From Salipiger pallidus (lineage in GTDB: Bacteria > Pseudomonadota > Alphaproteobacteria > Rhodobacterales > Rhodobacteraceae): DNA of 64,000 bases. The notes beneath the pieces were generated by a model. The model was not told the origin of the DNA. It searched no databases and saw nothing but the letters and a program-made list of their open reading frames with translations. Both the position numbers and the translations under genes were made by a program. Every line of letters starts with the position of its first letter. The first letter of the stretch is position 1. Below, piece after piece: positions 384 through 20,176 of the stretch. The stretch spans positions 1-64,000 of the forward strand of contig NZ_BMJV01000009.1 of NCBI RefSeq assembly GCF_014643635.1. The letters run 5' to 3'.

Positions 384-522
384 GCGAGAATAAGGCATGA
401 TCATAAGTCACTAAACTAAATGAACATTTCCCATATGCACATACATAACCTCAAGGCTGCACAACCGCACCGAACGGTTTTGCTTGCGGGACGGGCCATG
501 GCTCTTATAACTGGGGCTGTTC

Positions 523-645
<123 letters not shown>

Positions 646-716
646 CGTGCCACCGGCCGTCCGGGGGTGCGTGGCGAAAGCTCTGGGACCTTTTGTTGCA
701 AACGGAGGGTTCCGAA

Positions 717-1190
717 ATGACCGACCACAAAAACACCCGCATCGCCTTCATCCGTGCCCGCTGGCACGCCGACATCGTCGACCGCGCCTACGACGGCTTC
801 ATCGCCGAGGCGGACAACCTGCTGCCGGGTGCCACCACCGACGCCTACGATGTTCCCGGCGCCTTCGAGATGCCGCTGCTGGCCAAACGGCTTGCCGCCA
901 CGGGCCGCTATGACGCCGTTGTCGCCTGCGCCTTCGTCGTGGATGGTGGCATCTACCGCCATGATTTCGTCGCCGCCGCCGTGGTCGATGGTCTGATGGA
1001 AGCGCAGATGACCACCGATGTTCCGGTGTTCTCGGTCTCGCTGACGCCGCACCACTACCAGGAGACCGAAGTGCACAACGCCTTCTTCTCCGAACATTTT
1101 GTCAAGAAGGGCGCCGAGGCCGCGAACGCCGTCAAGGGCGTGCTCGAGATCGCCATGCCCAAAGCTGAGCTTTCGGTGGTCAACGGCTGA
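717..1190 (+). CDS. ribH: 6,7-dimethyl-8-ribityllumazine synthase, type II (RibH2)
   Basis: Lumazine synthase (157 aa) condenses 5-amino-6-ribitylaminouracil with 3,4-dihydroxy-2-butanone 4-phosphate in riboflavin synthesis. The 'FIRARWHADIVDRAYDGF' start, 'DVPGAFEMPL', 'CAFVVDGGIYRHDFV' and 'TPHHYQE' blocks match the Brucella/Mesorhizobium RibH2 subtype (decameric) rather than the icosahedral RibH1. The ATG at 717 is chosen over an upstream TTG because AACGGAGGG precedes it by 7 bases. It stands alone behind an FMN riboswitch with no other rib gene in view, so it is probably a second, flavin-regulated lumazine synthase. A strong terminator follows. Confidence 0.95.
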   Translation: MTDHKNTRIAFIRARWHADIVDRAYDGFIAEADNLLPGATTDAYDVPGAFEMPLLAKRLAATGRYDAVVACAFVVDGGIYRHDFVAAAVVDGLMEAQMTTDVPVFSVSLTPHHYQETEVHNAFFSEHFVKKGAEAANAVKGVLEIAMPKAELSVVNG

Positions 1191-3946: not shown

Positions 3947-3972
3947 TTCGCCTTTCGGTGACGAAGGAGGGG

Positions 3973-4365
3973 GGTGTAGAACGACGTCCCACACCTCAAG
4001 GGTTTCCACCAAGCCGGTCGGGTGGAAGACAGTTAGGTTCAGGATCACACGCAGCGAGGCAAGGTGTGCGACCGGTCGGTGAATGGTGCCGGAACCGCCA
4101 GGGCCGATGCTGTCCTCGCTCATCGCGTAGGTGACACCCACGCGCTTTGGCGGAAATTGCGGACCTGCTCGACGGTCATCTCCTCGTAACCCGTGAGATG
4201 CAGAAGACCTTAAGGCAGCATCGCGGCGTGGCCGCTCGACAGGATGAACCGGTCACGGTCGGGCCGGTCGGTATTGGCGGCGCCGGACTCGAGGTGCTTT
4301 GCGAACAGCACCGTTGCCCCGTCGACCGTGCCCATGCGAGCCTCGGGCTGGCTGATGATCGGTGC
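3973..4365 (-). pseudogene. Decayed transketolase (internal deletion, stop codon)
   Basis: Two transketolase pieces lie joined on the minus strand. The upstream piece (about 4365 to 4137) reads ...TVLFAKHLESGA..., DRDRFILSSGHAAMLP, then an in-frame TAA near 4211, and LLHLTGYEEMTVEQVRNFRQ, which is the N-terminal thiamine-diphosphate region around residues 35-90 of normal transketolase. The downstream piece, in a different frame from about 4141, reads GVTYAMSEDSIGPGGSGT then PVAHLASLRVILNLTVF, from the pyrimidine-binding domain around residue 480. About 390 codons between them are missing. An intact split transketolase lies at 33145-35027. Confidence 0.8.
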
Positions 4366-4450
4366 CCTAAGTCAGTTGGCAAGGGCGTAATGCGGGGACG
4401 ATTGCAGCCTTGGCCGCGCTTAGGGTCTGGTCGCGCATACGAGGCCTCTG

Positions 4451-4584: not shown

Positions 4585-5349
4585 ATGCCCAAGGCCTGGA
4601 TCGGCACGAGCTGGAAAATGAACAAGACGCTGGCCGAAGGGCTGGAGTGGGCGAACGGCCTTGCCGCAGCAGACCTGTCAGACAGCATACAGAGCTTCGT
4701 CATCCCGCCCTTCACCGCCACCCGGCAGGTGAAGGAGGCGCTGTCGGATGCGCCCGTCCTCGTAGGGGCGCAGAACATGCACTGGGCCGACAAGGGCGCC
4801 TGGACCGGCGAAATCTCGGCCCCGATGCTGGTGGATTGCGGTCTCGACATCGTGGAATTGGGACATTCGGAACGCCGCGCGCATTTCGGCGAAACCGATG
4901 AGACCGTCGGCCTCAAGACTGAAAGCGCGGTGCGTCACGGACTCATCCCGCTGATCTGCATCGGCGAGACGCTGGAAGATCGTGAAAGCGGCCGTGCCGC
5001 CGAGGTGCTGGAACGCGAGGTGCGCGGTGCTCTGTCGAAGCTCGAAGGCGATCAGAAGAACGCCGAGATCTGGCTGGCCTACGAGCCGGTCTGGGCCATC
5101 GGCGAGAACGGCATCCCCGCCACCTCCGATTACGCGGATGCGCGGCAGGCCGAGATCATCGCCGTGGCCGAGGACGTGCTGGGCCGCCGCATCCCCTGCC
5201 TCTATGGCGGGTCGGTGAACCCCGGCAATTGCGAAGAGCTCATCGCCTGCCCACATATCGACGGCCTGTTCATCGGCCGCTCGGCGTGGGATGTGGCAGG
5301 CTACCTTGATATTCTCGCGCGCTGCCACGCAGTGCTCGAACAGAACTGA
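4585..5349 (+). CDS. eryH: Triose-phosphate-isomerase-like L-erythrulose-1-phosphate isomerase
   Basis: TIM-barrel isomerase of 254 aa. It keeps the TPI catalytic set: Lys in SWKMN (residue 12), His in ELGHSERR, Glu in AYEPVWAIG, and the phosphate loop YGGSVNP. Its divergent sequence and its partner rpiB-like gene 15 bases downstream match the eryH-eryI (tpiA2-rpiB) pair of Brucella and rhizobia, where EryH converts L-erythrulose 1-phosphate to D-erythrulose 4-phosphate. A housekeeping glycolytic TPI is the alternative, but the erythritol genes 10 kb away favour EryH. First gene of a four-gene operon with eryI, fbp and fba. A GAAGGGGG ribosome site precedes the ATG. Confidence 0.88.
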   Translation: MPKAWIGTSWKMNKTLAEGLEWANGLAAADLSDSIQSFVIPPFTATRQVKEALSDAPVLVGAQNMHWADKGAWTGEISAPMLVDCGLDIVELGHSERRAHFGETDETVGLKTESAVRHGLIPLICIGETLEDRESGRAAEVLEREVRGALSKLEGDQKNAEIWLAYEPVWAIGENGIPATSDYADARQAEIIAVAEDVLGRRIPCLYGGSVNPGNCEELIACPHIDGLFIGRSAWDVAGYLDILARCHAVLEQN

Positions 5350-5364
5350 ACGGAGGATTTCCCC

Positions 5365-5826
5365 ATGAAAATCGCAATCGCAGGTGACAGCGCGGGTGAA
5401 CCGCTTGCCAAGGTCCTGGCCGAGTACCTGAGCCAGAACGCCAACTACGAGGTGTCCGACATCTCGCGCGTGGATGCCGAACTCGACCCCTTCTACGCCA
5501 ACTTGTCCGACCGCGTCGCGTCGCAGGTGCTGGATGGCACCTATGACAAGGCAATCCTGTGCTGCGGAACCGGCATCGGCGTGTGCCTTGCGGCCAACAA
5601 GGTCCCCGGCATCCGTGCCGCGCAGACCCACGACACCTATTCCGCCGGCAAGGCCGCGACCTCGAACAACGCGCATATCATCACCATGGGTGCGCGGGTG
5701 ATCGGCGGCGAGCTGGCCAAGGACATCGCGGATGCGTTCCTCACCTCGTCGTTCGATCCGAACGGCAAGTCGGCAGGCAACGTGAACGCCATCGACGAGG
5801 TTGACGCCAAGTACAACAAGGCGTGA
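5365..5826 (+). CDS. eryI: RpiB/LacAB-family D-erythrulose-4-phosphate isomerase
   Basis: RpiB-fold sugar-phosphate isomerase of 153 aa. The catalytic cysteine lies in the [21 protein letters not shown] block, with the conserved [15 protein letters not shown] segment following. In erythritol-using Alphaproteobacteria this member (EryI/DerI) converts D-erythrulose 4-phosphate to D-erythrose 4-phosphate, the last step before the pentose phosphate pathway. It follows eryH by 15 bases with an ACGGAGGA ribosome site, so the two are co-translated. Ribose-5-phosphate isomerase activity is a possible alternative. A hairpin follows the stop. Confidence 0.87.
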
Positions 5827-5833
5827 TGCCTTC

Positions 5834-5859
5834 GGCCCGGCGTCTTCCGGCGCCGGGCC
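5834..5859 (+). terminator. Stem-loop between eryI and fbp
   Basis: A 9-bp GC stem (GGCCCGGCG / CGCCGGGCC) begins 7 bases after the eryI stop and lacks a T run. It is more likely an attenuator or mRNA-stabilising hairpin than a full terminator. The 144-base gap to fbp is the widest in this operon. Confidence 0.5.
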
Positions 5860-5970
5860 ACTCCCCTGCCCTGCCGGGGTTCGGGCCGCCCCTGCGGGGG
5901 CACCTCATTCTCCACCTCTTCATTCTGCCCCTCCAAGGGCACGTCATTTCGCCCCCGAGGTATTCCCCAC

Positions 5971-6939
5971 ATGCTGACGCTTCCCGGCGACCGTCTTCCG
6001 ACGGCCGAGATCCTGCCTGCCTGCCTTCCCGAAGACGGGCTGGGCCGCATCATCAACGCTCTTGCCCATGCCATGCCCGCCATCGCCGCGCGGCTTGCGG
6101 CGGGCAAGCTCATGGGCGATCCGGCGGCGCTGGTGGGCAACAACGAAAGCGGTGATGCGCAAAAGGCGCTGGACGTCGGCGCGCATGACCACGTGACTGC
6201 CGAGCTGCGCGGCTGCGGCGTGCGCTTCATGCTGTCCGAAGAGGCCGAAGAGGTCGAGGTCCTCGACCCGAACGGCAGCTTTGACATTGCCATCGACCCC
6301 ATCGACGGCTCCGGTTCCATCGGGATCGGCGCGCCTTTGGGGATGCTTTTCGTGATCTATCCCACGGGCCCGAAGGATTTGGCCCGTCCAGGGTCCGAGG
6401 CCGCCGCCTCGGGCTATGCCTCCTTCGGGCACAGCCTTGATTTCGGCTATGTCATCAAGGGCGCAGGGGTGAACCTCTTTACCTTCGACGGACAGGATTT
6501 CCGCATCACCAACCGCGATGTGAAGATCAAACCCACCACCTCGACCATCGCCTACAACGCTTCCAACGAACGCCACTGGGCACCGGGGCTCAAGCAATGG
6601 GCCGCGGATTTGCGCGCCGGGTCCGATGGCCCGAGGGGCCGCGATTTCAACATGCGCTGGCTGGCTGCCGCCGTGGGCGAACTGCACCGCATTCTGCTCA
6701 AGGGCGGCGCGTTCCTTTACCCCGCCGACAGCCGCCCCGGCTACGAGGGCGGCCGCCTGCGCCTTGCCTACGAGGCCGTGCCGATGGCCATGCTCATCGA
6801 GGCCGCCGGGGGCAAGGCGACCGACGGCATCAACCGCATTCTCGACCTCGTGCCGAGCACCCCGCACCAGAACATCGCCCTGGTCTTCGGCGCCTCGGAA
6901 GAGGTCGAGACCGTCGCCCGCCACCTTTCGGAGACCTGA
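5971..6939 (+). CDS. fbp: Class I fructose-1,6-bisphosphatase (possible sedoheptulose bisphosphatase)
   Basis: Sugar bisphosphatase of 322 aa, class I (CbbF/Fbp type). The metal-binding motif DPIDGSGSIGIGAPLG (residue ~110), NMRWLAAAVGELHRIL, GGAFLYPADSRP, and GGKATDGINRILDL are all in place. It is not a GlpX (class II) enzyme. It hydrolyses fructose 1,6-bisphosphate, and proteobacterial CbbF relatives also take sedoheptulose 1,7-bisphosphate. The fba start is 3 bases after its stop, so the pair is translationally coupled. No Rubisco or phosphoribulokinase gene is in the window, so a role in the Calvin cycle is not supported. Placement behind eryHI suggests handling of erythrose 4-phosphate-derived sugars. 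Confidence 0.92.
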   Translation: MLTLPGDRLPTAEILPACLPEDGLGRIINALAHAMPAIAARLAAGKLMGDPAALVGNNESGDAQKALDVGAHDHVTAELRGCGVRFMLSEEAEEVEVLDPNGSFDIAIDPIDGSGSIGIGAPLGMLFVIYPTGPKDLARPGSEAAASGYASFGHSLDFGYVIKGAGVNLFTFDGQDFRITNRDVKIKPTTSTIAYNASNERHWAPGLKQWAADLRAGSDGPRGRDFNMRWLAAAVGELHRILLKGGAFLYPADSRPGYEGGRLRLAYEAVPMAMLIEAAGGKATDGINRILDLVPSTPHQNIALVFGASEEVETVARHLSET

Positions 6940-6942
6940 CCC

Positions 6943-7977
6943 ATGGCCCGCATCACCCTTCGCCAGCTTCTCGACCATGCCGCCGAGAACAGCTACGCGG
7001 TTCCCGCCTTCAACATCTCGAACATGGAGATGGGCCTTGCCATCATGACCGCCGCCCGCGAAGCCAATGCGCCGGTGATCCTTGCCGCCTCGCGCGGGGC
7101 GCGGTCCTACGCCGGGGATCTGCTGCTGGCGCGGCTGATCGACGGGCTGGTGGAAACCTTCCCCGAGGTGCCGGTCTGCATGCATCTCGACCATGGCAAC
7201 AACCTTGCCACCTGCGCCACGGCAATCCAGAACGGCTTTACCTCCGTGATGATGGACGGCTCGCTCAAGGCCGACGGCAAGACCCCCGCCGAGTACGCCT
7301 ACAACATGGACATCACGGCCCGCGTGACCGAGATGGCCCATGCCTGCGGTGTCTCCGTCGAGGGCGAGCTTGGGGTCCTGGGATCGCTCGAGACCGGCAT
7401 GGGCGACCAGGAAGACGGCCACGGCGCCACCGAGAAGCTGTCCGAAGAGCAGCTTCTGACCGATCCCGCCGAGGCCGAGCAGTTCGTCAAGGACACCGGC
7501 GTCGATGCGCTGGCCGTGGCCATGGGCACGTCGCACGGCGCCTACAAGTTCACCCGCCAACCCGACGGCGACATCCTTGCGATGACCGTCATCGAAGAGA
7601 TCAACCGACGCCTGCCGAACACGCATCTGGTGATGCATGGCTCGTCGAGCGTCCCCGAGGATCTGCAGCAGATCATCAACAGCTACGGCGGCGACATCCG
7701 CCCCACCTGGGGCGTGCCGGTGGAAGAGATCCAGCGCGGTATCCGGTCGGGCGTGCGCAAGGTCAACATCGACACCGACAACCGCATGGCGATGACCGCC
7801 GGCGTGCGCCGGGTGCTGTCCGAGACCCCCGGCGAGTTCGATCCGCGCAAGTACCTGAAAGAGGGCTCGAAGCTGATGAAAGAGCTGTGCGTGGCGCGGT
7901 TCGAGGCCTTCGGCACGGCAGGAAATGCGGACAAGATCATGCCCCTGCCGCTCGAAGCGATGGCGGCGAAGTACTGA
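6943..7977 (+). CDS. fba: Class II fructose-bisphosphate aldolase, Calvin subtype
   Basis: Zinc aldolase of 344 aa with the CbbA-type features [18 protein letters not shown] (zinc and catalytic region), [37 protein letters not shown] and [10 protein letters not shown], plus [11 protein letters not shown]. The family condenses dihydroxyacetone phosphate with glyceraldehyde 3-phosphate, and Calvin-subtype members also accept erythrose 4-phosphate to give sedoheptulose 1,7-bisphosphate. It is last in the eryH-eryI-fbp-fba operon and followed by a terminator. Whether it works toward glycolysis or toward the seven-carbon sugar is not decided by sequence. Confidence 0.95.
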
Positions 7978-8849: not shown

Positions 8850-9464
8850 TCATTGCGCAAAAAAGACTTCAGGCGCTTTCATCCCGGGCAAGACGCGCAT
8901 CCGGTCCGCCCAATGGGCCATGACGTCCGAGGGGGCGACGCCTGCGTCGTCCAGCCATTGGACATAGCCCCACACGGCGCAATCTCCGATCCCCGGGGCG
9001 CGTCCGTGCAGGAAGGGTTCATCGCCGATCAGCCGGTCGAAATTGGCGCGATCCACCTCGTAGCGCGCCATCAGCCAAGCCACCACATCACCGGACAGCC
9101 CCGCCGAGCCGCTGCGTCGCGCTTCCTTAAGTTGCGGCAGGCACATGCCGATGCGGTTGGCTTCCCACATCAGGATCTCACGGCCGCGCCGGAGCCCCTC
9201 GGGCGTGTCTCCGCCCAGCAGGGCAAAGCGCTGTGCCAGTTCCATAAGGATTGCGCCGGACTGGAACACCGCCGCGCCATCCAGCAACAGCACCGGCACT
9301 TCGGCGAAGGGGCTGACCTTGAGGAATGTGGCAAGGCGGGTTTCGGGGGCGGCCCAAATGTCGATGACGGTGGTCGCATGGGGCAGGTCCGCAAGCGACA
9401 GGGCGAGCGCCACTTTGCAGGCGTGGCCGCTGTCGGGGTGGCCGTAGAGGTGCAGGTCAGGCAT
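8850..9464 (-). CDS. Glutathione S-transferase family protein
   Basis: 204-aa protein with an N-terminal thioredoxin-fold domain (LHLYGHPDSGHACKVALAL at the start, then SPFAEVPVLLLDGAAVFQSGAIL carrying the cis-Pro and the E/QS glutathione-contact motif, residues ~50-68) and an all-helical C-terminal domain. The ATG at 9464 is chosen because it begins the GST fold and has GGAG 7 bases upstream, although an open frame extends further. It appears monocistronic. Exact substrate is unknown. Cytosolic detoxification or thiol transfer is the family role. Confidence 0.9.
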   Translation of the reverse strand: MPDLHLYGHPDSGHACKVALALSLADLPHATTVIDIWAAPETRLATFLKVSPFAEVPVLLLDGAAVFQSGAILMELAQRFALLGGDTPEGLRRGREILMWEANRIGMCLPQLKEARRSGSAGLSGDVVAWLMARYEVDRANFDRLIGDEPFLHGRAPGIGDCAVWGYVQWLDDAGVAPSDVMAHWADRMRVLPGMKAPEVFFAQ

Positions 9465-9781
9465 GGGACGTCTCCGCGCATTTCGACAGACCGTCTCGCG
9501 CTTGCACGCGCCGGTCAAGCTGTAGCCGCTGCGCACGAGGGTTAAGCTCCAGCCCCTGAACGCGGGGAAGCACGATACGCGTTTCCTGGCAGGATCACTG
9601 CAGATGCGCAACGGCAGAGCGCACCAGTGCTTCAAAGTTCAGGCAGGCGAGAGCAGGTCCAGTTCTGGGGCCAAGGATGCCCCGGTCGGGGACGCGCCCC
9701 CTTTCTATCCCCCGGGAGCCTTGCCGGAAGGAAGGGCGCCCTTCCCTCGGGCCATCCATGACAAGCGCGGGCCTAGGGGTG
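9465..9781. other. Intergenic region, no gene recognised
   Basis: No coding sequence is supported here. A perfect 16-bp palindrome GGAAGGGCGCCCTTCC lies at 9730-9745, about 35 bases downstream of the decayed yoeB on its own strand. It may be a hairpin ending that transcript. The stretch near 9465-9600 presumably carries the GST promoter, but no clear -35/-10 pair was found. Confidence 0.4.
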
Positions 9782-10030
9782 CTAACGGCATTGCGCGATT
9801 TCAAGCTGTTGGGTCGGCCCCTCCCCCTGCTCGCGATAGACCAGCCGGTGCTCGGCGGTGATGCGGCGAGGCCAGAAGCCGGACAGATTGCCCTTGAGCG
9901 GTTCGGGCTTGCCTGTGCCTTCGTAAGGGTGGCGCAGGCATTCCTCGATCAGACGGCTCAGCCGCTTGAACTGCTGACGGTCCTTTTCCTGCCAGTAGCG
10001 GTGATCAGCCCACCCGCGGTTCTAGAACAC
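9782..10030 (-). pseudogene. yoeB: Inactivated YoeB/Txe-type toxin
   Basis: The frame encodes WADHRYWQEKDRQQFKRL..., IEECLRHPYEGTGKPEPLKG, LSGFWPRRITAEHRLVY and ends IAQCR. This is the RelE-fold mRNA interferase YoeB/Txe. Two defects are visible. The natural GTG start (10030, inside the antitoxin gene as usual) is followed at codon 3 by TAG (10022-10024). The normal CRYHY ending is cut to CR by another TAG (9782-9784), removing the terminal His-Tyr pair that YoeB catalysis needs. It is therefore very likely inactive. It overlaps the end of the antitoxin gene, as in intact yefM-yoeB pairs. Confidence 0.82.
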
Positions 10031-10366: not shown

Positions 10367-11317
10367 TCAGGAGGACGTGTCCAGAACGAACGGGCCGGTG
10401 TAGTTGTCGACGTTGGAGCTGTCGATCAGCAGGCAGTCGAAGAGCTGCTTTTCCTCGGCCACGGCCAGCTCGCCATTCTTGATGAAGTGGTCTGCCTGGC
10501 GGACGGCTTCTTCGGCGAAGACGGCGACCGGCTGCAGGACGGTATAGCTCAGTTCGCCTGCGCGCACCGCGTCCACCGCATCGGGAGAGCCGTCAAAGCC
10601 GCCGACGATCTTGCCCTCGAGCGCGCCGGCCTCTTTTAGGGCGGCGATGGCCCCCAGCGCCATTTCGTCATTGCCCGAGATCACGCCCGAGATGTCGGGG
10701 TTGGCCTGCAGCATGGACTGCATCTTGGAGTACCCTTGGGTGCGGTCCCAGTTGGCCACTTCCTGTGCCTTCTTCTCGAGATCGGGGTACTGGCTCAGCA
10801 CGGTTTCGAAGCCGTTCGACCGGGTCTGGGCGTTGTTGTCCGACGGCGCGCCGAAGAGTTCCACGTAGGTACCTTCGCCGCCGATGGCCTCGACCCATGC
10901 CATGGCGCCAAGCGCCGCGCCCTGGGCGTTGTTCGACACCAGCTGCGCCTTGGCGAGACCGGCTTCGTTGATCTCGGCGTTGACGAGGAAGACCGGAATG
11001 CCCGCGTCCACGGCCTTGCGCACCGCGCCGACCGAACCGTCCGCGTTGGCCGGGTCGAGGATGATGGCGACCGCTTCGTTGGTGATCGCGGTGTCGATGA
11101 GGTTGCTTTCGGTGTTGGTGTCACCGGTGTGCGCCGACACGTTCGCGGTGTAGCCCAGTTCCTCGGCGGTGGCCTTGGCGACTTCGCCTTCGGTGAACCA
11201 GTAGGGGTTCGACGGATCGTTGACGATGATCGAGATCAGGCCGTCCGCCATGGCGGCATTGGCCATGAGCGGGAATGCGGCGACGGATGCGAGGATCAGG
11301 CGACGGGTGAGTTTCAT
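10367..11317 (-). CDS. Periplasmic sugar/polyol-binding protein of the erythritol ABC importer
   Basis: 316-aa type I periplasmic binding protein (ribose-binding fold). A Sec signal peptide MKLTRRLILASVAAFPLMANAAMA is cleaved near residue 24. The family blocks IIVNDPSNPYWFTEGEVAK, IILDPANADGSVGAV, IPVFLVNAEI and VISGNDEMALGAIAAL follow. It is last in a four-gene minus-strand operon with the permease, ATPase and a DUF2291 protein, divergent from eryABC. In rhizobia this transporter type (EryEFG/Mpt) imports erythritol and related polyols. A hairpin separates it from the permease, which may let it be made in excess. Confidence 0.9.
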   Translation of the reverse strand: MKLTRRLILASVAAFPLMANAAMADGLISIIVNDPSNPYWFTEGEVAKATAEELGYTANVSAHTGDTNTESNLIDTAITNEAVAIILDPANADGSVGAVRKAVDAGIPVFLVNAEINEAGLAKAQLVSNNAQGAALGAMAWVEAIGGEGTYVELFGAPSDNNAQTRSNGFETVLSQYPDLEKKAQEVANWDRTQGYSKMQSMLQANPDISGVISGNDEMALGAIAALKEAGALEGKIVGGFDGSPDAVDAVRAGELSYTVLQPVAVFAEEAVRQADHFIKNGELAVAEEKQLFDCLLIDSSNVDNYTGPFVLDTSS

Positions 11318-11377
11318 GGTGAAGTTCCTCCCAATTGGGTTTGGTATGTGCCGGAGAGGCTCCGGCGAGGGTTCGGG

Positions 11378-11399
11378 TGCGGGGTCTCCCTGCCCCGCA
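11378..11399 (-). terminator. Stem-loop between permease and binding-protein genes
   Basis: TGCGGGG pairs with CCCCGCA across an 8-base loop in the 99-base gap. It lacks a T run, so it fits an RNA-stabilising or attenuating hairpin that sets component ratios. Confidence 0.5.
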
Positions 11400-11416
11400 T
11401 CCGCGAATTTCTGGTC

Positions 11417-12451
11417 TCAGCGGCCCTTGGAGCCGTACTGCAGGCTGTTGAGCAGCACCGCGAGCACGATCACCGCGCCGGTGAAGACGGTCTGCCAGTA
11501 GGCCGAGACGCCGATGATCACGAGCCCGTCCGACAGAAAGCCGATGACGAAGGCCCCCAGCATGGTGCCGCGCACGTTGCCGCGTCCACCGGTCAGGGCC
11601 GCGCCGCCGATCACCACCGCCGCGATGGCGGTCAGTTCATAGGTGGTGCCTGCGGTGGGCCCGGCGGAGGTCAGCTGCGAGCTCAGGACCAGCCCGGCGA
11701 TGGCGGCGCAGATGCCCGACAGCACGTAGACCGAGATCTTGACGCTGCGGGTCGGCACACCGGACAGCTCGGCTGCACGTTCATTGCCGCCCGAGGCATA
11801 TAGCCAGCGGCCAAAGGCGGTGCGGGCCAGCACGAGGCCGATCACCAGCGCCACGATGGCCAGCACGATGACCCCGATGGGCACGCCGCCGATGCGGTTG
11901 AAACCCAGCCAGTCAAAGCCGGTGTTCCCCAGCGCATCGGAGCCGCCGAGGTTGTTGTACGTCAGGCCATTGGTCATCAGCAGCGCCACGCCGCGCGCCA
12001 CGTAGAGCATGCCCAGGGTGGCGACGAAGGCCGGCACCTTGAAGAAGGCGATGAGCACGCCGTTGATCGCGCCCACGAAGGCCCCGAGGCAGATGGTCAG
12101 CACCACCACCGCCCAGACCGGCGGATAAAGAATGATGCCCGCGCTGGGGATCTCGACCCCCTGCATCAGGTAGCCCGCGATGACCCCCGACAGGCCCAGC
12201 GTGGACCCGACGGACAGGTCGATCCCCCCGTTGAGGATAACCAGCAGCATGCCGATGGCCAGCAGGCCGAAGATCGCCACGTGGCTGGACATGATCAGGA
12301 AGTTGCCGACCGAGAAATAGACCGGCGACAGGATGGAAAAGACGATGATGATCGCGACGAGCGCGAAGAAGGCGCGGCCTTCCAGAAGGATCTTGCCGAT
12401 GTTCATGTTCACTCCACCGCCTGCGGGTTTGCTTGTCGAAATATCCGCCAT
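11417..12451 (-). CDS. ABC importer permease (BPD_transp_2/RbsC type), erythritol
   Basis: 344-aa inner-membrane permease of the ribose/CUT2 class with about ten hydrophobic segments. The family motifs GMLLVILNGGIDLSVGSTLGLSG, ARGVALLMTNG, GRWLYASGGNERAAELSGVPT (coupling region) and AAVVIGGAALTGGRGNVRGTMLGAF are present. Start at 12451 is chosen because GGGAGG lies 7 bases upstream and the ATPase stop is only 11 bases before it. It works with the ATPase at 12463 and the binding protein at 10367. Confidence 0.92.
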   Translation of the reverse strand: MADISTSKPAGGGVNMNIGKILLEGRAFFALVAIIIVFSILSPVYFSVGNFLIMSSHVAIFGLLAIGMLLVILNGGIDLSVGSTLGLSGVIAGYLMQGVEIPSAGIILYPPVWAVVVLTICLGAFVGAINGVLIAFFKVPAFVATLGMLYVARGVALLMTNGLTYNNLGGSDALGNTGFDWLGFNRIGGVPIGVIVLAIVALVIGLVLARTAFGRWLYASGGNERAAELSGVPTRSVKISVYVLSGICAAIAGLVLSSQLTSAGPTAGTTYELTAIAAVVIGGAALTGGRGNVRGTMLGAFVIGFLSDGLVIIGVSAYWQTVFTGAVIVLAVLLNSLQYGSKGR

Positions 12452-12462
12452 GACGGCCTCCC

Positions 12463-14001
12463 TTAATGCACGGCTTCGCCAGAGGCGGCCATGATCTGTT
12501 CTTTGGTTGCGGTATGGTCGAACTCGGCCGAGATCCTGCCCCGGTGCATCACGATGATACGGTGCGCCACGCTCAGGCACTCACCGACCTCGGAGGTCGA
12601 ATAAAGCACCGCCAAACCACGGTTTTTCGCGGTTTCGGCCAGCAGCTTGAACACCTCGGCCTTGGCGCCGATGTCGATGCCGCGCGACGGCTCGTCCAAC
12701 AAGATGACCTCGGGCTGGGTGGCCAACATCTTGCCGATGACAACCTTCTGCTGGTTGCCCCCCGACAGGGACCCGATCATCGCGGCCCCTCCGTCGGTCT
12801 TGACGGTGACTTCGCGGATCGAGTCGTCGACCACCTTCGCCTCGGCCTTGCGCGAGGTGAAAAGCCCCCTGGTGAATGCCCCGATGGACGCCAGCGACAG
12901 GTTCTGACCCACGGTCATGGTCTGCACGAGGCCGTCCTTCTGGCGATCCTCGGGCACCAGCACGAGGCCTGCGTTGATGCGTTCCGCGATCGACAGGCCG
13001 GAAATGTCCTGCCCGTGCAATTTCACCGCGCCGCCGGTGGATTTCAGACGCCCCGCGGCGGTCTCCATCATCTCGGTGCGGCCCGCGCCCATGAGGCCGT
13101 AGATGCAGACGATCTCGCCCGCCTTTACCTCGAGGCTGAGATGATCCACCACGAGGCCATGCCCCGACGGGTCCGGCACGCAGAGGTTTTCCACGCTGAA
13201 GGCCGGCGCGCCCATCTCGGAGGCAGGGGGAGAGCCAAGGTCGAAGTTCTCGCCCACCATGTTGCGCACGATCCACTCGAGGTCGATCTCGGCGCGGGGG
13301 GCATAGGCAGTCATTTCGCCGTCGCGCAGCACGACGGCGTGGTCGGTGATCTCCAGCGCCTCTTCGAGGTGGTGCGAGATGTAGACGATGCTCACGCCCT
13401 TGGCCTTGAGATCGCGGATCACCTTGAACAGCACCTCCACCTCGGAGGCGGACAGGGCGGACGTCGGCTCGTCCATGATCAGGATGCGCGATTTCGCCTG
13501 CAGCGCGCGGGCGATCTCGACGATCTGCTGCTGACCAAGGCGCAGCTCTTCGAGCGGGGTAAGCGGGTCGATGTCCTCTTCCAGCTCCAGCATCAGCTCG
13601 CGGGTGACGCGCTCTTCCTCGGCGAAGTTGACCCCGCGCGCGGTGCGGATTTCCCGCCCCATGAAGATGTTGTCCCGCACGTTCATATTCGGGGCCAGCG
13701 CAAGCTCCTGGTGGATGATCGACACGCCGCGCGCCAGCGCGTCATTGGCACCGTGGAAGGTCACCGGCTCGCCATCGAGGATGATCTCGCCATGGGTGGG
13801 CGTCACGATGCCCGACAGGATCTTCATCAGGGTCGACTTGCCAGCGCCGTTCTCGCCAAAGAGCGTCGTGACCTGACCGCGATGGATGTCGAAGTTGACG
13901 CCCTTGAGCGCCTTCACCGCACCGTAATGCTTGGCCACATCGCGGGCCTTCATCACGACCTCGCCGGTGGTCCCGGTGGAAATGGCCTGATGCACGGTCA
14001 T
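12463..14001 (-). CDS. ABC importer ATPase with two nucleotide-binding domains, erythritol
   Basis: 512-aa sugar ABC ATPase of the RbsA/MglA class. The N-terminal half has Walker A GENGAGKST and Walker B ILIMDEPTSALS. The C-terminal half has a degenerate Walker A (GLMGAGRTEMM), signature SLSGGNQQK and Walker B VILLDEPSRGID. A degenerate second Walker A is normal for the class. The ATG at 14001 overlaps the stop of the DUF2291 gene (ATGA), so that start is used rather than a GTG upstream. It energises import of erythritol or a similar polyol. Confidence 0.93.
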   Translation of the reverse strand: MTVHQAISTGTTGEVVMKARDVAKHYGAVKALKGVNFDIHRGQVTTLFGENGAGKSTLMKILSGIVTPTHGEIILDGEPVTFHGANDALARGVSIIHQELALAPNMNVRDNIFMGREIRTARGVNFAEEERVTRELMLELEEDIDPLTPLEELRLGQQQIVEIARALQAKSRILIMDEPTSALSASEVEVLFKVIRDLKAKGVSIVYISHHLEEALEITDHAVVLRDGEMTAYAPRAEIDLEWIVRNMVGENFDLGSPPASEMGAPAFSVENLCVPDPSGHGLVVDHLSLEVKAGEIVCIYGLMGAGRTEMMETAAGRLKSTGGAVKLHGQDISGLSIAERINAGLVLVPEDRQKDGLVQTMTVGQNLSLASIGAFTRGLFTSRKAEAKVVDDSIREVTVKTDGGAAMIGSLSGGNQQKVVIGKMLATQPEVILLDEPSRGIDIGAKAEVFKLLAETAKNRGLAVLYSTSEVGECLSVAHRIIVMHRGRISAEFDHTATKEQIMAASGEAVH

Positions 14002-14639
14002 TGCACCTGCACCTCGACCGGGGTGACCAGCCACATCTTGGGATTGATGAGCTTGAAGGCCCCGGTGACGGTAATGGTCTTGCCGGTCAGATCGCTGGTG
14101 TCGATGGGGTCGAGCACCTCGGCCTTCATGGCGCGGTTGATGCCCGATCCGGCGTCCTGGTATTCGATCTGGTTCTTGAATTCGCCGAAGGCGATGTCGC
14201 CCGGCGCATCGCGCAGGTCGGTGCCGTTGATGGCGGGGCCGGTCTGGACGCGGATGCGCACGTCCTCGGCGCCCTCCACCGCGACATCGTAGATGCCGCT
14301 CTTGCCCTCGCCCACGGTGCCGGTGAAGGTCACAGGGATCACGGGCATCATGCCGCCGGTGCCGTATTCCTCGGAGGCGGCAGCCTTGTCCTCGGTCAGC
14401 TCGGTATAAAGCGTCGCCGCATCGGGGGCGCGGGCCTTGATGTCATCGCGGATGCGGGGGAACTCTTCGGCACCGAAGGTATCGGGCGAAAACGCCGCGA
14501 CGCGGGCATCCTGTTCGGACCCGATGGTCACCACGGTGGTGTCGATGGCGATGGCAGCCAGAACGGCGATCACGGCAGCGCCGATGACAAGCCCACGCTT
14601 GCCGACGCGCGGTTTCATGGAAATATCGGTGGCACTCAT
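13998..14639 (-). CDS. DUF2291 family protein of polyol ABC operon
   Basis: 213-aa protein with an N-terminal membrane anchor (residues ~15-34, GLVIGAAVIAVLAAIAIDTT) and a periplasmic domain rich in beta strands (VIPVTFTGTVGEGKSGIYDV, LTGKTITVTGAF, MWLVTPVEVQV at the C-terminus). This DUF2291 family is found in CUT2 sugar ABC operons, including the rhizobial erythritol/adonitol transporter. Its molecular role is not established. It is the first gene of the operon and is translationally coupled to the ATPase, which suggests a role in importer assembly or substrate delivery. Confidence 0.85.
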   Translation of the reverse strand: MSATDISMKPRVGKRGLVIGAAVIAVLAAIAIDTTVVTIGSEQDARVAAFSPDTFGAEEFPRIRDDIKARAPDAATLYTELTEDKAAASEEYGTGGMMPVIPVTFTGTVGEGKSGIYDVAVEGAEDVRIRVQTGPAINGTDLRDAPGDIAFGEFKNQIEYQDAGSGINRAMKAEVLDPIDTSDLTGKTITVTGAFKLINPKMWLVTPVEVQVQ

Positions 14640-14945: not shown

Positions 14946-15114
14946 ACACTCGACATGGAGCGGGCCTCGGATATGCTGGCACGGCTTTCACGGGGGATCC
15001 CTCGTGGAATCGGCCACACCGGCAGGAGGAGCCGGGGCCTCGATACAGAAGGGAGGAGTCGCATGGCACACGCGCCCTGCGCAGACGACCTGACGCATGC
15101 CTTGGGGGCGCGTC

Positions 15115-16710
15115 ATGTCTGATCGCGACATCATCATCGGAATCGACGCCGGAACCTCGGTCATCAAGGCCGTGGCCTTCAGCACCGATGGCCGCCAGCT
15201 TGGCGCCTCGGCGGTCAAGAACCGCTACACCAGCGGTGCGGGCGGCGCTGTCACCCAGAACATGGACGACACCTGGGCCGACTGCGCGACTGCGCTGCGC
15301 GGTCTTGGGGACAAGATCGACGGGCTCGCCGGGCGCACCGCCGCGCTGGCGGTGACCGCTCAGGGCGACGGCACCTGGCTTGCCGGTGCCGGGGATCGCC
15401 CGGTCGGGGATGCCTGGCTCTGGCTTGATGCCCGCGCCGCCGGGACCACCGCCCAGCTTGCGGCGCAAGGGTCCGATGCAGCGCGGTTTACCGCCACGGG
15501 CACCGCGCTCAACACCTGCCAGATGGGCGCACAGATGGCCCATATGCACCATCACCACCCCGAGCTTCTGGACCGGGCCGAGGTGGCGCTGCATTGCAAG
15601 GACTGGCTTTACCTCAACCTCACCGGGGTCCGGGCCACCGACCCCTCCGAGGCCAGCTTTACCTTCGGCGACTTCCGCAAGCGGCAGTATTCCAATCTCG
15701 TGATTGAGGCGCTTGGCCTCACCTCCCGGCGCCACCTGCTGCCGCAAATCATCGACGGCACGCAAACCACCCACCCCCTGAGCGCTGCCGCCGCCGAGGC
15801 CACCGGCCTTCTGCCGGGCACCCCGGTGTCGCTGGGCTACGTGGACATGGTGATGACTGCGCTAGGGGCCGGAGTGCATACGGGCACAAAAGGCGCGGCC
15901 TGCTCCACCATTGGCTCAACTGGCGTTCACATGCGCGCCGTGCGCGATGACGAAGTGCAGCTCAACGGCCGTTCGGGTTATGTCATCTGCCTGCCCGACG
16001 ACCGCATGGTCACGCAGGTGCAGACCAACATGGCCGCCACGCTCAACATCGACTGGGCGCTGCGCATGGCCGCCGACCTCATGAGCGAAACCGGCCACCC
16101 CCATGATTACGCCGACCTCGTGGCGCGGATCGACGGCTGGCTTGAGCGCTCCGAGCCGGGCGCGCTGCTGTATCAGCCCTACGTCTCCGAGGCGGGCGAA
16201 CGTGGTCCCATGGTGAACCCCAACGCGCGCGCAGGCTTCATCGGGCTGCACGCCGGGCACCGCTTCCCGGACATGATCCGCGCGGTGGTCGAGGGGCTGG
16301 GGATGGCCGCCCGCGATTGCTATGCCGCCATGGGCGACATGCCGCGCGAGCTGCGGCTCACCGGCGGGGCCGCCCGGTCGGGCGCGCTGCGCGGCATCCT
16401 TGCCGCCACCACCGGCGCGCCGGTGCGCGTGTCGGCCCGCGAAGAGGCGGGCGCGGCGGGCTGCGCCATGATGGCCGCCGTCGCCATCGGCGCCTATCCC
16501 GACATGAAATCCTGCGTGGCCGAATGGGTCACGCCCCTGCTGGGTGCCCCCGAGGCCCCCTCCCCTGCCCTGCAACACACCTACGAGGCGCTGTATCCCG
16601 CCTATGCCGAGGCCCGCGAGGCCCTGACCCCGGTCTGGGACCGGCTGGCCGGGACCCGCGCCCCCCACACCACACAAGACGCGCCGAAACAGGCGACCGG
16701 AGGATCCTGA
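15115..16710 (+). CDS. eryA: Erythritol kinase (FGGY family)
   Basis: 531-aa FGGY carbohydrate kinase that phosphorylates erythritol with ATP. IIIGIDAGTSVIKAVAF gives the phosphate-1 loop, and long blocks match Brucella EryA closely (AVTAQGDGTWL, GDAWLWLDARAAG, ALHCKDWLYLNLTGVRATD, SEASFTFG, LGYVDMV.TALGAG, MAATLNIDW, LTGGAARSGALR). The in-frame ATG at 15097 is possible, but 15115 (MSDRDIII) matches the family start. Next gene starts 2 bases after the stop, so eryABC are one unit. Confidence 0.96.
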   Translation: MSDRDIIIGIDAGTSVIKAVAFSTDGRQLGASAVKNRYTSGAGGAVTQNMDDTWADCATALRGLGDKIDGLAGRTAALAVTAQGDGTWLAGAGDRPVGDAWLWLDARAAGTTAQLAAQGSDAARFTATGTALNTCQMGAQMAHMHHHHPELLDRAEVALHCKDWLYLNLTGVRATDPSEASFTFGDFRKRQYSNLVIEALGLTSRRHLLPQIIDGTQTTHPLSAAAAEATGLLPGTPVSLGYVDMVMTALGAGVHTGTKGAACSTIGSTGVHMRAVRDDEVQLNGRSGYVICLPDDRMVTQVQTNMAATLNIDWALRMAADLMSETGHPHDYADLVARIDGWLERSEPGALLYQPYVSEAGERGPMVNPNARAGFIGLHAGHRFPDMIRAVVEGLGMAARDCYAAMGDMPRELRLTGGAARSGALRGILAATTGAPVRVSAREEAGAAGCAMMAAVAIGAYPDMKSCVAEWVTPLLGAPEAPSPALQHTYEALYPAYAEAREALTPVWDRLAGTRAPHTTQDAPKQATGGS

Positions 16711-16711
16711 C

Positions 16712-18217
16712 ATGACCACCCAAGAGCTGGACCTGTTCGTCATCGGAGGCGGCATCAACGGCGCAGGCTTTGCCCGCGACGCCGCCGGGCGTGGCCTCAA
16801 GGTGGCGCTTTGTGAAAAGGACGATCTTGCGCAGGGCACCTCGTCGCGGTCGGGCAAGCTGGTCCATGGCGGGCTGCGCTATCTTGAGTATTACGAATTC
16901 CGCCTCGTGCGCGAAGCGCTGATCGAACGCGAAGTGCTCATGAACGCCGCCCCCCACATCATCTGGCCGCTGCGCTTCGTGCTGCCCCACAGCCCGCAGG
17001 ACCGGCCCGCGTGGCTCGTGCGGCTGGGGCTCTTCCTCTACGACCACCTCGGGGGGCGCAGGAAGCTACCCGGCACCCGCACGCTCAACCTGCACCGCGA
17101 CCCCGAGGGCGCACCTTTGCTCGACCAGTACAAGCGCGGGTTCGAATACTCCGACTGCTGGGTTGACGATGCCCGGCTGGTGACGCTCAACGCGCTTGAT
17201 GCGGCACGCAAGGGCGCCACCGTGCTCACCCGCTCCCCCGCCATCACCGCGCGGCGCGAGGACGGCAAATGGCACGTCACCACGCAGAACACCCTCACCG
17301 GGGAAAAGCGCGAGTTCGTGGCGAAATGTCTGGTGAATGCCGCAGGGCCGTGGGTCACTGATGTGCTCACCCGCGTGGCCGGTGCCAATTCGACCCGCAA
17401 CGTGCGCCTTGTGAAGGGCAGCCACATCATCGTGCCGAAATTCTGGGAAGGTCCGCACAGCTACCTCGTCCAGAACAAGGACAAGCGGGTGATCTTCATC
17501 AACGCCTACGAAGGCGACAAGGCCCTGATCGGCACCACCGACATTGCCCATGACGGCCGGGCCGAGGACGTGAAGATCGACGATACCGAAATCCAGTACC
17601 TGCTGGATTGCGTCAACCGCTACTTCAAGGAACAGCTGACCCGCGACGACATCGTCGAGACCTTCTCGGGCGTGCGCCCGCTCTTCGACGATGGCCAGGG
17701 CAACCCCTCGGCAGTGACCCGCGATTACGTCTTCGACCTTGATGAGACCGGCGCGCCGCTGCTCAACATCTTCGGCGGCAAGATCACCACCTTCCGCGAA
17801 CTGGCAGAACGCGGGATGCACAAGATCCAGCACCTGTTCCCGAAAATGGGCCCGGACTGGACCGAAACCGCCACCCTCCCCGGCGGCGACATGGAAAACG
17901 CCGACTATGACCTGTTCCGCAACACGATGAAGACGGAATTTCCCTTCATGAACAGGGGTTTGCGGGAATACTACGGGCGCCGGTACGGCACCCTCACCCG
18001 CGATCTGGCCGCTGGTGCCACCTCGCTCGAGGGGCTGGGGCGTCATTTCGGCGGCAATCTCTACGAGGCCGAGGTGAACTGGCTCGTGACCCACGAATGG
18101 GCGCAGACCGCCGAGGATATCCTGTGGCGCCGCACCAAGCATCGCCTCCACATGACCGAGGCACAGACCGCCGCCTTCACCGACTGGTTCAACACCCACA
18201 AGGCCGAGGCCGCCTGA
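16712..18217 (+). CDS. eryB: D-erythritol-1-phosphate dehydrogenase (FAD-dependent, GlpD-like)
   Basis: 501-aa FAD oxidoreductase of the aerobic glycerol-3-phosphate dehydrogenase family. The dinucleotide motif VIGGGINGAGFARDAAGRG (residues 10-28) and TSSRSGKLVHGGLRYLEYYEF are near the start. VRLVKGSHIIVP, LIGTTDIAHDG and FSGVRPLFDD lie in the middle, and a C-terminal DAO_C-type helical domain follows. In erythritol operons EryB oxidises erythritol phosphate to erythrulose phosphate and passes electrons to the quinone pool at the membrane. It sits 1 base after the eryA stop and 1 base before eryC, leaving no doubt about the operon. Confidence 0.95.
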   Translation: MTTQELDLFVIGGGINGAGFARDAAGRGLKVALCEKDDLAQGTSSRSGKLVHGGLRYLEYYEFRLVREALIEREVLMNAAPHIIWPLRFVLPHSPQDRPAWLVRLGLFLYDHLGGRRKLPGTRTLNLHRDPEGAPLLDQYKRGFEYSDCWVDDARLVTLNALDAARKGATVLTRSPAITARREDGKWHVTTQNTLTGEKREFVAKCLVNAAGPWVTDVLTRVAGANSTRNVRLVKGSHIIVPKFWEGPHSYLVQNKDKRVIFINAYEGDKALIGTTDIAHDGRAEDVKIDDTEIQYLLDCVNRYFKEQLTRDDIVETFSGVRPLFDDGQGNPSAVTRDYVFDLDETGAPLLNIFGGKITTFRELAERGMHKIQHLFPKMGPDWTETATLPGGDMENADYDLFRNTMKTEFPFMNRGLREYYGRRYGTLTRDLAAGATSLEGLGRHFGGNLYEAEVNWLVTHEWAQTAEDILWRRTKHRLHMTEAQTAAFTDWFNTHKAEAA

Positions 18218-18218
18218 C

Positions 18219-19151
18219 ATGGGTCTGACGCTTTCGCTCAACACCAACCCTCTGGTGAACCGCTTTGCCGATCCCGGCGACCTGATCACCACGGTCGCCC
18301 GCGATCTGCGCATCCGGGATCTTCAGCTCACCCATGAGTTCGTGAACCCTAGCTGGCCCGCCCCGGTGATCCGCCGCATGACCCGCCAGATGGGCGCGGC
18401 GCTGGACCGCACCGGCGTGCGCGTCACCTCGGGCATGACCGGACCCTACGGGCGGCTCAACCACTTCGGCCACCCGGACCGCGACGTGCGCCGCTATTAT
18501 GTCGACTGGTTCAAGACCTTCGCCGACATCACCGCCGACCTTGGCGGCACCTCCGTGGGCACCCAGTTCGCCATCCTCACCTACGCCGAACAGGACGACC
18601 CGGGCCGGCGCGAGGAGATGATCAAGATCGCCATCGACGCATGGGCCGAGGTGGCAGAGCACGGCAAGGCGGCGGGCCTCGATTACGTCTTCTGGGAACC
18701 CATGAGCATCGCCCGCGAGTTTGGCGAAACCATTGCAGAATGCATGGCGCTTCAGGACCGGCTGACCGCGGCGAACATGGCGATTCCCATGTGGATGATG
18801 GCCGACATCGACCACGGCGACGTGACCTCGGACAACCCCGACGATTACGACCCCTACGCCTGGGCGCGGGCGGTGCCGAAGGTGTCTCCGATCATCCACA
18901 TCAAGCAAAGCCTCATGGACAAGGGCGGCCACCGCCCCTTCACCGCCGAGTTCAACGCCAAGGGCAAGATCCATCCCGAACCGCTGCTGGCGGCCCTAGC
19001 GGACGGCGGCGCGCAGGATAACGAGATCTGCCTCGAGCTGTCCTTTAAGGAGCGCGAGCCCAACGACCGCGAGGTGATCCCCCAGATCGCCGAAAGCGTC
19101 GCTTTCTGGGCGCCGCACATCTACACCGGGGCGGACGACCTGAAGGTCTGA
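18219..19151 (+). CDS. eryC: Erythrulose-1-phosphate 3-epimerase (xylose-isomerase-like TIM barrel)
   Basis: 310-aa AP-endonuclease-2/xylose-isomerase-fold protein. The opening LTLSLNTNPLVNRFADPGDL, then LQLTHEFVNPSWPA, VTSGMTGPYGRLNHFGHPD, FWEPMSIAREFGET, MMADIDHGDVTSDNPDDYDP and CLELSFKEREPNDREVIPQ all match Brucella EryC. The Glu, Asp and His residues in these blocks are the likely metal ligands. Known activity in the family is epimerisation of D- to L-erythrulose 1-phosphate, feeding EryH. It ends the catabolic part of the operon. A GC-rich hairpin follows. Confidence 0.94.
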   Translation: MGLTLSLNTNPLVNRFADPGDLITTVARDLRIRDLQLTHEFVNPSWPAPVIRRMTRQMGAALDRTGVRVTSGMTGPYGRLNHFGHPDRDVRRYYVDWFKTFADITADLGGTSVGTQFAILTYAEQDDPGRREEMIKIAIDAWAEVAEHGKAAGLDYVFWEPMSIAREFGETIAECMALQDRLTAANMAIPMWMMADIDHGDVTSDNPDDYDPYAWARAVPKVSPIIHIKQSLMDKGGHRPFTAEFNAKGKIHPEPLLAALADGGAQDNEICLELSFKEREPNDREVIPQIAESVAFWAPHIYTGADDLKV

Positions 19152-19240: not shown

Positions 19241-20176
19241 ATGAACGACAGCGACGAACCTCTCGCCATCCGCGCCGCCTGGCTGCATTACGTCGGCGGA
19301 CTGACACAGGCCAAGGTGGCCAAGCGGCTCGGCATCCCGTCGGTCAAGGCCCACCGGCTGATCGCCCGCGCCGTGGCCGAGGGCTACGTCAAGGTGTCCA
19401 TCGAAGGCGACATTGTCGAATGCGTCGAGCTCGAGGCGCAGCTGTGCGACAAGTTCGGCCTGAGCCATTGCGAGGTCGCGCCCGACCTCGGCGAAGATGG
19501 CCTCCCCCTGCGGACGCTCGCCCTTGCCGGCGCGGCCTATCTCAAGCGCCAGTTCTGCTCGGGCGAACAATCCGTGATAGCCCTCGGCCATGGCCGCACG
19601 CTGGCCGAGATCACCCGCCAGCTGCCGCGCATGGACGCATCGGGCCTGCGCTTCGTCTCGCTGTTGGGCGGGCTCACCCGGAATTTCTCGGCCAACCCCC
19701 ATGACGTGATGCACCGCCTTGCGGAAAAGACCGGCGCGCGGGCGTATGTCATGCCGGTGCCGTTCTTCGCCAACACCGTCGAGGACCGCGAGGTGCTTCT
19801 GGCACAGCGCGGCGTGGACGAGGTGTTTCGCATGGCGCAGGCCGCCCCACTCAAGATCGTTGGCATCGGCACCGCCACAGCAGACGCGCAGCTTGTGTCC
19901 TCGGGGATGATCGAGCCCGCCGAGATCGAGGCCATTTCCCGCGCTGGTGCCCGTGGCGAGATGCTCGGCGACTTCTTCGATGCCTCCGGGGCTGTCGTGG
20001 AAACCACGCTTTCTGCCAGAACGCTCGCGGTGGGCTACGATCCCGACCGCGATGAGGATATCGTGGCCATCGCGGGCGGGCCGGACAAGGTCGACGCGAT
20101 CCGGGCGGTTCTTCGCTCGGGCCGCGTGGCAGGGTTTATAACCGATGAACGGACCGCGCGCAGCCTGCTTGGCTGA
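19241..20176 (+). CDS. eryD: SorC-family transcriptional regulator EryD
   Basis: 311-aa regulator. An N-terminal helix-turn-helix (YVGGLTQAKVAKRLGIPSVKAHRLIARA, residues ~18-45) precedes a SorC/CggR sugar-phosphate-binding domain (LGHGRTLAEITRQLP, FVSLLGGLTRNFS, KIVGIGTATADAQLVSSGM, VAIAGGPDKVDAIRAVLRSG). Brucella EryD represses eryABCD until erythritol or a product is present. The gene follows eryC by 89 bases with a weak ribosome site. The inverted repeat at 14919 is the best candidate operator. Confidence 0.93.
   Translation: MNDSDEPLAIRAAWLHYVGGLTQAKVAKRLGIPSVKAHRLIARAVAEGYVKVSIEGDIVECVELEAQLCDKFGLSHCEVAPDLGEDGLPLRTLALAGAAYLKRQFCSGEQSVIALGHGRTLAEITRQLPRMDASGLRFVSLLGGLTRNFSANPHDVMHRLAEKTGARAYVMPVPFFANTVEDREVLLAQRGVDEVFRMAQAAPLKIVGIGTATADAQLVSSGMIEPAEIEAISRAGARGEMLGDFFDASGAVVETTLSARTLAVGYDPDRDEDIVAIAGGPDKVDAIRAVLRSGRVAGFITDERTARSLLG

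Follow-up and report, generated by a model that had tools for sequence, protein, structure and literature searches.

Genes at the eryHI locus

The stretch analysed here, called the window throughout, comprises 64,000 nucleotides of Salipiger pallidus (contig NZ_BMJV01000009.1, positions 1 to 64,000 of the forward strand), and this study concerns a bisphosphatase gene, fbp, and an aldolase gene, fba, which lie there beside the erythritol isomerase genes eryH and eryI. The eryH gene (4585 to 5349, + strand) encodes a tetrulose phosphate isomerase of the triose-phosphate isomerase family (NF000722, 415 bits against a cut-off of 293), and eryI (5365 to 5826, + strand) encodes a D-erythrulose-4-phosphate isomerase whose product is erythrose 4-phosphate (E4P; NF051858, 252 bits, cut-off 240). 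They are followed by fbp (5971 to 6939, + strand), a class I bisphosphatase assigned to an erythritol-linked lineage by its PF00316 match, tree position and residue signature, and by fba (6943 to 7977, + strand), a class II aldolase. The initial annotation had read these four genes in this order on one strand, with 3 bases between the last two, and had taken the aldolase for the Calvin subtype; both readings hold, the latter through a match to TIGR01521 (FruBisAldo_II_B, class II subtype II_B) of 577.9 bits against a cut-off of 496.35. Fbp exceeded the Pfam PF00316 cut-off (72.7 bits, cut-off 34.8) and stayed under every NCBIfam class 1 fructose-bisphosphatase (PRK09293) cut-off listed, the best score being 339.6 against 358.

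The gaps eryH-eryI, eryI-fbp and fbp-fba measure 15, 144 and 3 bases. The 144-base gap (5827 to 5970, + strand) holds a strong GC-rich hairpin (z -2.9 for the fold of 5820 to 5975), and the scan for terminator-like sites gave none on its + strand. Such a site was found 3' of fba at 7978; the region has two where 2.5 are expected, which is within chance, as is the count of sigma-70-like promoters between 4380 and 8100 (0 found, 0.5 expected). Of the 80 related loci considered below, 18 likewise have fbp and fba downstream of eryI in the same orientation, and the aligned parts of eryI and fbp are 10 to 220 bases apart there. Judged from this layout, co-transcription of eryH-eryI-fbp-fba is plausible.

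Inspection of the sequence upstream of eryH in relatives led to the remnant of a transketolase gene (tkt) in the window. The relatives L006, L008, L009, L012 and L013 carry tkt in the same place, divergent from eryH, and tblastn with their transketolases as queries recovered two pieces. The internal part lies at 3962 to 4141 on the - strand (residues ~453-518 of the relatives' protein; 56.7-60% identity, E 6e-20 to 6e-18), and the N-terminal remnant, with in-frame stops, at 4147 to 4392 on the - strand (residues ~11-106; 56.7-58.9% identity). The N-terminal piece is over the PF00456 cut-off at 62 bits with one stop inside, and about 350 residues are missing between the two pieces. No report of a transketolase gene in erythritol loci was found in the literature searched, which is no proof of absence.

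Recurrence of the gene set and lineages of its enzymes

Related loci were searched for with EryI, and the best 80 of 190 relatives were compared. These 80 were chosen by likeness to the window's EryI, so their proportions lean towards the window's arrangement; in 12 of them eryI lies less than 6 kb from the end of the locus, and the counts are therefore lower bounds. Genes were counted within 6 kb of eryI at identity floors of 60, 45, 60 and 60% for eryH, fbp, fba and tkt, respectively. On this basis, eryH was present in at least 75 of the 80 loci, fbp in at least 42, fba in at least 36 and both of the latter in at least 31; tkt was present in at least 33, always divergent and upstream, and fbp, fba and tkt occurred together in at least 23. 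Eleven loci had fbp without fba and five had fba without fbp. Besides the 18 loci with both genes downstream on the same strand, 13 had both divergent upstream and four had a convergent fbp alone, and the gene order of the window's erythritol locus was common to many of the 80. The claim that known erythritol loci do not include both enzymes is contradicted by these 31 loci, and also by Brucella abortus, in which fbp-fba stand beside eryHI (PMC3522698).

The linkage was also surveyed in 149 genomes of the window's family, sampled independently of the locus, with an EryI threshold of E 1e-60. EryI was found in 13 genomes (eight over the curated cut-off), a PF00316 match in 50 and a TIGR01521 match in 34. 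In five of the 13 EryI genomes a class I fbp lies no more than 5 kb from eryI, and a sixth, G459, has the fbp-fba pair on another contig. If one randomly placed fbp per genome is assumed, chance linkage within 6 kb is about 0.3% per genome (4.3-Mb genome), which gives P ~2e-10 for five or more of 13. The PF00316 scores in the family form two groups, at 116 bits and above and at 88.2 bits and below. EryI occurs in six of nine genomes with a low-scoring Fbp versus seven of 140 others (Fisher P 9e-6), or, without the outlier G480, in six of eight versus seven of 141 (P 3e-6); for genomes with only higher-scoring class I fructose bisphosphatases the figures are four of 41 versus three of 99 without any (P 0.19). 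A class-wide survey of 385 genomes with NF051858 was too thin for use: only the window's own genome and one other passed the cut-off, and nearly all of the 284 that matched at E 0.001 scored far below it.

Among 227 plasmid records with an Fbp match, 13 hand-chosen stretches were examined. Six of them have fbp beside eryH/eryI (L120, L121, L141, L142, L144, L148), four have Calvin operons (L123, L145, L146, L147) and three are of neither type (L119, L122, L143). In Roseibium L120, a single run contains eryA-B-C, a regulator, tkt on the opposite strand, a DeoR-type regulator, eryH, eryI, fbp and fba. A compact tkt-fbp-fba-eryH-eryI unit is found on L121 and L142, and likewise, with eryR, on L141. 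On the plasmids L121 (Rhizobium) and L142 (Sinorhizobium) this set, as tkt-fbp-fba-tpi-rpiB, lies near sugar ABC transporter genes with no eryABC in the stretch, and a four-carbon acid sugar kinase is annotated near the set of L121; the set of these two plasmids may serve other tetrose sources. Of the three remaining stretches, L122 has the fbp-fba pair alone and L143 has tkt-fbp-fba plus an EryI-like gene at 59% identity about 3.5 kb from fbp, while the Salipiger plasmid L119 has an orphan fbp of the same lineage (9001 to 9975 of that stretch), which adjoins a HipA-domain gene; the annotation of its 19-kb stretch shows no erythritol genes. The same Fbp lineage is present, at 79% identity, in L130 from genome G470 of the window's genus, a genome with no EryI at E 1e-60 and no TIGR01521 match at E 1e-100.

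Trees were computed for Fbp (68 of 68 rows) and Fba (55 of 55 rows), and the length filter dropped none. The Fbp tree is a quick one without bootstrap, no Brucella sequence is among the loci, and the erythritol-linked rows are many by choice of loci. In this tree, six rows from Calvin (cbb) operons and two unplaced others stand apart from a side of 59 rows, with Shimodaira-Hasegawa-like approximate likelihood ratio (SH-aLRT) supports of 85 and 88, the value of 88 for the 59-row side being below the tool's star; the cbb rows alone have 75. On the 59-row side, 53 rows have an EryI match in the locus, all within 6 kb of that EryI, and six have none. The main erythritol-linked group of 54 rows, five of them without EryI nearby, differs from the cbb rows at 17 positions (at least 90% alike in the former and at least five of six alike in the latter). 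Several of these positions belong to the DPxDG loop or follow it closely; the loop reads DPIDGSGS versus DPLDGSSN in cbb, with the acidic residues of the loop kept. The SEE and DPxDG acidic motifs, which we take to be conserved functional residues of fructose bisphosphatases, are kept in all rows of the lineage. The Fba tree is less resolved; its five cbb rows form one group (97), and the window is grouped with erythritol-linked rows in starred sets of 10 and of 24. The Rhizobium-type tkt-fbp-fba rows are neighbours of cbb according to Fba (86) but fall on the erythritol side according to Fbp (88), so the two genes may have had different histories in some rows. The very long branches of L131 (Fbp) and L129 (Fba) probably belong to other families; L131 is the outlier counted as G480 in the family survey. 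The window's Fbp neither clusters with cbb-operon sequences, as a CbbF would, nor adjoins prk or RuBisCO genes, and on the evidence of trees and alignment the erythritol-linked Fbp is a lineage of its own with its own signature, separate from the Calvin CbbF.

Counterparts in the genome and neighbouring genes

The genome of the window, 99.94% complete, was searched once per family. The fba of the locus was the only match to the class II aldolase family PF01116 at E 0.001, and its fbp was the only match to PF00316. A GlpX-type fructose bisphosphatase is present on contig C1 and a class I aldolase (297-aa frame) on contig C5, where a second triose-phosphate isomerase gene was also found; the existence of another aldolase and another bisphosphatase, for which the initial annotation had proposed to look, favours a dedicated role for the pair beside eryHI. 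Two transaldolase-family matches were over the Pfam cut-off, a 312-aa frame on contig C8 and, on contig C3, a match to the transaldolase/fructose-6-phosphate aldolase family of about 205 codons that ends a longer mechanical frame, so the host is not short of transaldolase. The transketolase search gave a full-length gene on C1 and a weak match on C17, besides the split gene located at 33 kb in the window. No match to phosphofructokinase was obtained in this genome. Two roles are ruled out by these findings, namely that of the cell's sole, housekeeping aldolase and bisphosphatase, by GlpX and the class I aldolase elsewhere, and that of a substitute for a missing transaldolase, by the transaldolase matches. 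Since GlpX and the class I aldolase are present and phosphofructokinase gave no match, gluconeogenesis as such should be possible without the plasmid pair. With the transaldolase matches added to this inventory, fbp-fba looks like a dedicated route parallel to transaldolase rather than its replacement.

By gene content, the window has an erythritol locus of the Brucella/Rhizobium type, in which eryA-eryB-eryC (15097 to 19151) accompany eryH-eryI (4585 to 5826). The eryA gene (15097 to 16710, + strand) encodes an FGGY-family kinase, with FGGY kinase matches below their cut-offs, and is a conserved neighbour of eryB-eryC. It is followed by eryB (16712 to 18217, + strand), a glycerol-3-phosphate-dehydrogenase-like erythritol phosphate dehydrogenase (NF009906, 830 bits), and by the tetrulose phosphate racemase gene eryC (18219 to 19151, + strand), which gave no match in the NCBIfam search and has 76-89% identity to the eryC of the 42 loci in which the match spans at least 99% of it. 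Two regulator genes come next, an eryD-like one (19247 to 20176, + strand; PF04198, 68% identity with the Roseibium L120 regulator encoded after eryC) and an eryR-like one of the DeoR family (20192 to 20956, + strand; PF00455 and PF08220, 60% identity to a Roseibium L120 regulator). Between the two ery clusters, at 10367 to 14639 on the - strand, lie genes for a sugar-type ABC transporter (binding protein, permease and ATPase, with ribose/xylose-type NCBIfam matches below cut-offs) and a 213-aa companion for which no family match was found. The neighbours of this transporter are the same in many relatives in the related-locus comparison, and it is a probable erythritol importer. Matches to repC and repB at 21040 to 23628, near the erythritol genes, suggest that this part of the contig belongs to a plasmid or chromid, on which the erythritol locus probably lies. 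A 401-aa frame at 23613 to 24818 precedes repC/repB and may be repA, the replicon being of the repABC type (21040 to 24818). At the near end of the window (515 to 1190), a flavin mononucleotide riboswitch (RF00050, 515 to 645) stands ahead of a 6,7-dimethyl-8-ribityllumazine synthase gene. A second sugar cluster at 30402 to 35027 encodes a xylose-isomerase-like protein with a triose-phosphate isomerase barrel, a Dak1-Dak2 kinase and, in two separate genes, a split transketolase, and presumably resembles the D-apulose kinase/transketolase set of apiose catabolism.

A possible outlet for erythrose 4-phosphate

We consider it likely that the adjoining Fba and Fbp drain E4P from erythritol into the pentose phosphates, beside transaldolase. 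Erythritol would be converted to E4P through EryA, EryB, EryC, EryH and EryI. Fba would condense E4P with dihydroxyacetone phosphate, yielding sedoheptulose 1,7-bisphosphate, and Fbp would hydrolyse this to sedoheptulose 7-phosphate in an irreversible step that acts as a one-way pull. Transketolase would then make pentose phosphates, which would take up more E4P to yield fructose 6-phosphate and glyceraldehyde phosphate. Summed by hand from textbook reactions, Fba, Fbp and transketolase with triose-phosphate isomerase, ribose-5-phosphate isomerase and ribulose-phosphate epimerase would convert three E4P to two fructose 6-phosphate and one inorganic phosphate, the triose phosphate being recycled and only catalytic, whereas the transaldolase route would convert three E4P to one fructose 6-phosphate and two glyceraldehyde phosphate. 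The two outlets would thus differ in their products, and only the Fba/Fbp one would be pulled by an irreversible step. Without phosphofructokinase, fructose 6-phosphate would probably pass through glucose 6-phosphate into the Entner-Doudoroff route. The conversion of tetrose phosphate to sedoheptulose 7-phosphate proposed in the initial annotation is kept as the best reading, and this chemistry has been shown in Brucella suis (PMC11005471); its addition that no transaldolase would be involved was too strong for a genome with a 312-aa transaldolase and a second transaldolase/fructose-6-phosphate aldolase-family match.

Several observations weigh against such an outlet. Transaldolase is present in the genome, and the transketolase gene of the locus is broken in the window; as it is decayed, the chromosomal-type transketolase on contig C1 must serve. 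The activity of the window's Fba and Fbp on four- and seven-carbon substrates is a prediction. The fbp-fba route is optional in EryI loci, because neither gene lies within 6 kb of eryI in 33 of the 80 (four of the 33 are cut by a contig end closer than 6 kb) and none of fbp, fba and tkt does in 27; in the family survey, fba as well as fbp stands beside eryI in only three of the 13 EryI genomes. The same Fbp lineage occurs without EryI in G470 and G406 by genome search and in the plasmid stretches L119 and L122. In Brucella, the loss of the bypass alone is reported to leave growth on erythritol when tal is intact (PMC11005471), and Escherichia coli that had received no ery genes beyond eryA, B, C, H and I is reported to use erythritol for growth with the help of its own enzymes (PMC10190533).

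The strongest competing explanation is that Fba and Fbp act on their ordinary three- and six-carbon substrates and pull the trioses from erythritol to fructose 6-phosphate in a host without phosphofructokinase. This was argued for Brucella in 2012 (PMC3522698), Brucella suis is reported to need fba on gluconeogenic substrates (PMC11005471), and the search of the window's genome for phosphofructokinase gave no match. A second pair tied to eryHI would not be needed for this purpose where GlpX and a class I aldolase are already present; moreover, the product of erythritol is described as E4P and not dihydroxyacetone phosphate (PMC11005471), and tkt travels in 33 of the 80 loci. We regard this explanation as unlikely on its own, though the bypass and the gluconeogenic reactions may run together. 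Much less probable still is a shared plasmid history that brought fbp-fba beside eryHI with separate regulation and use. The 144-base gap with its hairpin between eryI and fbp would suit such a history, as would members of the same fbp lineage away from eryHI (L119, L122 and G470 among them), but the association is kept in several arrangements (18, 13 and 4 of the 80 loci), and both genes are reported as erythritol-induced in Brucella (PMC3522698). That fbp and fba are the leftover of a cbb operon, as the TIGR01521 subtype of Fba, also found in Calvin operons, might suggest, is rejected on the trees and the gene context and deserves hardly any credence, since no prk or rbcL match was obtained at E 1e-15 in the window, to which the RuBisCO search was limited, the cbb rows of Fbp (with the two unplaced ones) and of Fba stand apart with the supports given above, and the 17 Fbp differences are near-fixed.

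The outlet proposed for the window has its closest parallel in Brucella, which was compared by published description and not by sequence. Sedoheptulose 1,7-bisphosphate is a substrate of two Brucella suis 513 enzymes, Fbp, which also acts on fructose 1,6-bisphosphate, and the broad phosphatase Bbp; a tal mutant of this strain grows on erythritol, but growth stops when fba is missing as well (PMC11005471). In Rev1, too, the double mutant lacking fba and tal shows no growth on erythritol (PMC11508834). In Brucella abortus, fbp and fbaA lie beside deoR-tpiA2-rpiB on the opposite strand and are erythritol-induced (PMC3522698). The window resembles the Brucella locus as described in having ery genes, two isomerases, regulators, fbp and fba close by and a class II Fba, with no phosphofructokinase (PMC11005471, PMC3522698). 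It differs in that the Brucella fbp-fba are on the strand opposite to eryHI and are taken as a separate transcription unit (PMC3522698), whereas those of the window are on the same strand downstream, and in that Brucella suis 513 is described with one Fba only (PMC11005471), whereas the window's genome has an extra class I aldolase and a tkt remnant at the locus. In the rhizobial eryR-tpiB-rpiB loci, eryH corresponds to tpiB and eryI to rpiB (PMC3599248). That survey of erythritol loci shows an aldolase gene in two Mesorhizobium and in Brucella, and its text, figures aside, has no occurrence of 'bisphosphat' or 'transketolase' (PMC3599248). The set is also like the Calvin cbbF-cbbP-cbbT-cbbA operons in its class I fructose bisphosphatase, transketolase and class II Fba, and sedoheptulose-bisphosphatase activity has been reported for the Cupriavidus Calvin enzyme (as stated in PMC11005471); unlike those operons, the window has no prk or RuBisCO match, and its Fbp is of the separate lineage with DPIDGSGS in place of DPLDGSSN. 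In the plasmid-borne sedoheptulose-bisphosphatase variant of the ribulose monophosphate cycle in Bacillus methanolicus, Fba and a bisphosphatase likewise lead to sedoheptulose 7-phosphate, but the enzyme is of the GlpX type and serves methylotrophy, with no erythritol involved (PMC11005471).

The core of this hypothesis is already published for another genus, Brucella, and no known pathway is overturned. What is added here is a new member with another gene order, and evidence from sequence comparison that many erythritol loci of alphaproteobacteria share the set, which has its own Fbp lineage, together with a frequent transketolase partner that was not found described in the literature searched and is decayed in the window. 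We tentatively suggest that the erythritol-linked Fbp may be a class I bisphosphatase specialised for sedoheptulose 1,7-bisphosphate (DPIDGSGS, then G.A.LG), which with Fba and transketolase would form a portable tetrose-phosphate cycle of the stoichiometry given above for erythritol and, on some rhizobial plasmids, for other tetrose-yielding pathways, with the transketolase dispensable, as in the window. At the sequence level, the Fbp lineage offers a marker of what may be a bacterial class I sedoheptulose bisphosphatase outside the Calvin cycle, and non-pathogenic relatives such as Thalassospira or Salipiger are possible test organisms in place of Brucella. As various other alphaproteobacteria also have the set next to eryHI, the sedoheptulose-bisphosphate outlet published in 2024 for Brucella seems not to be peculiar to that genus.

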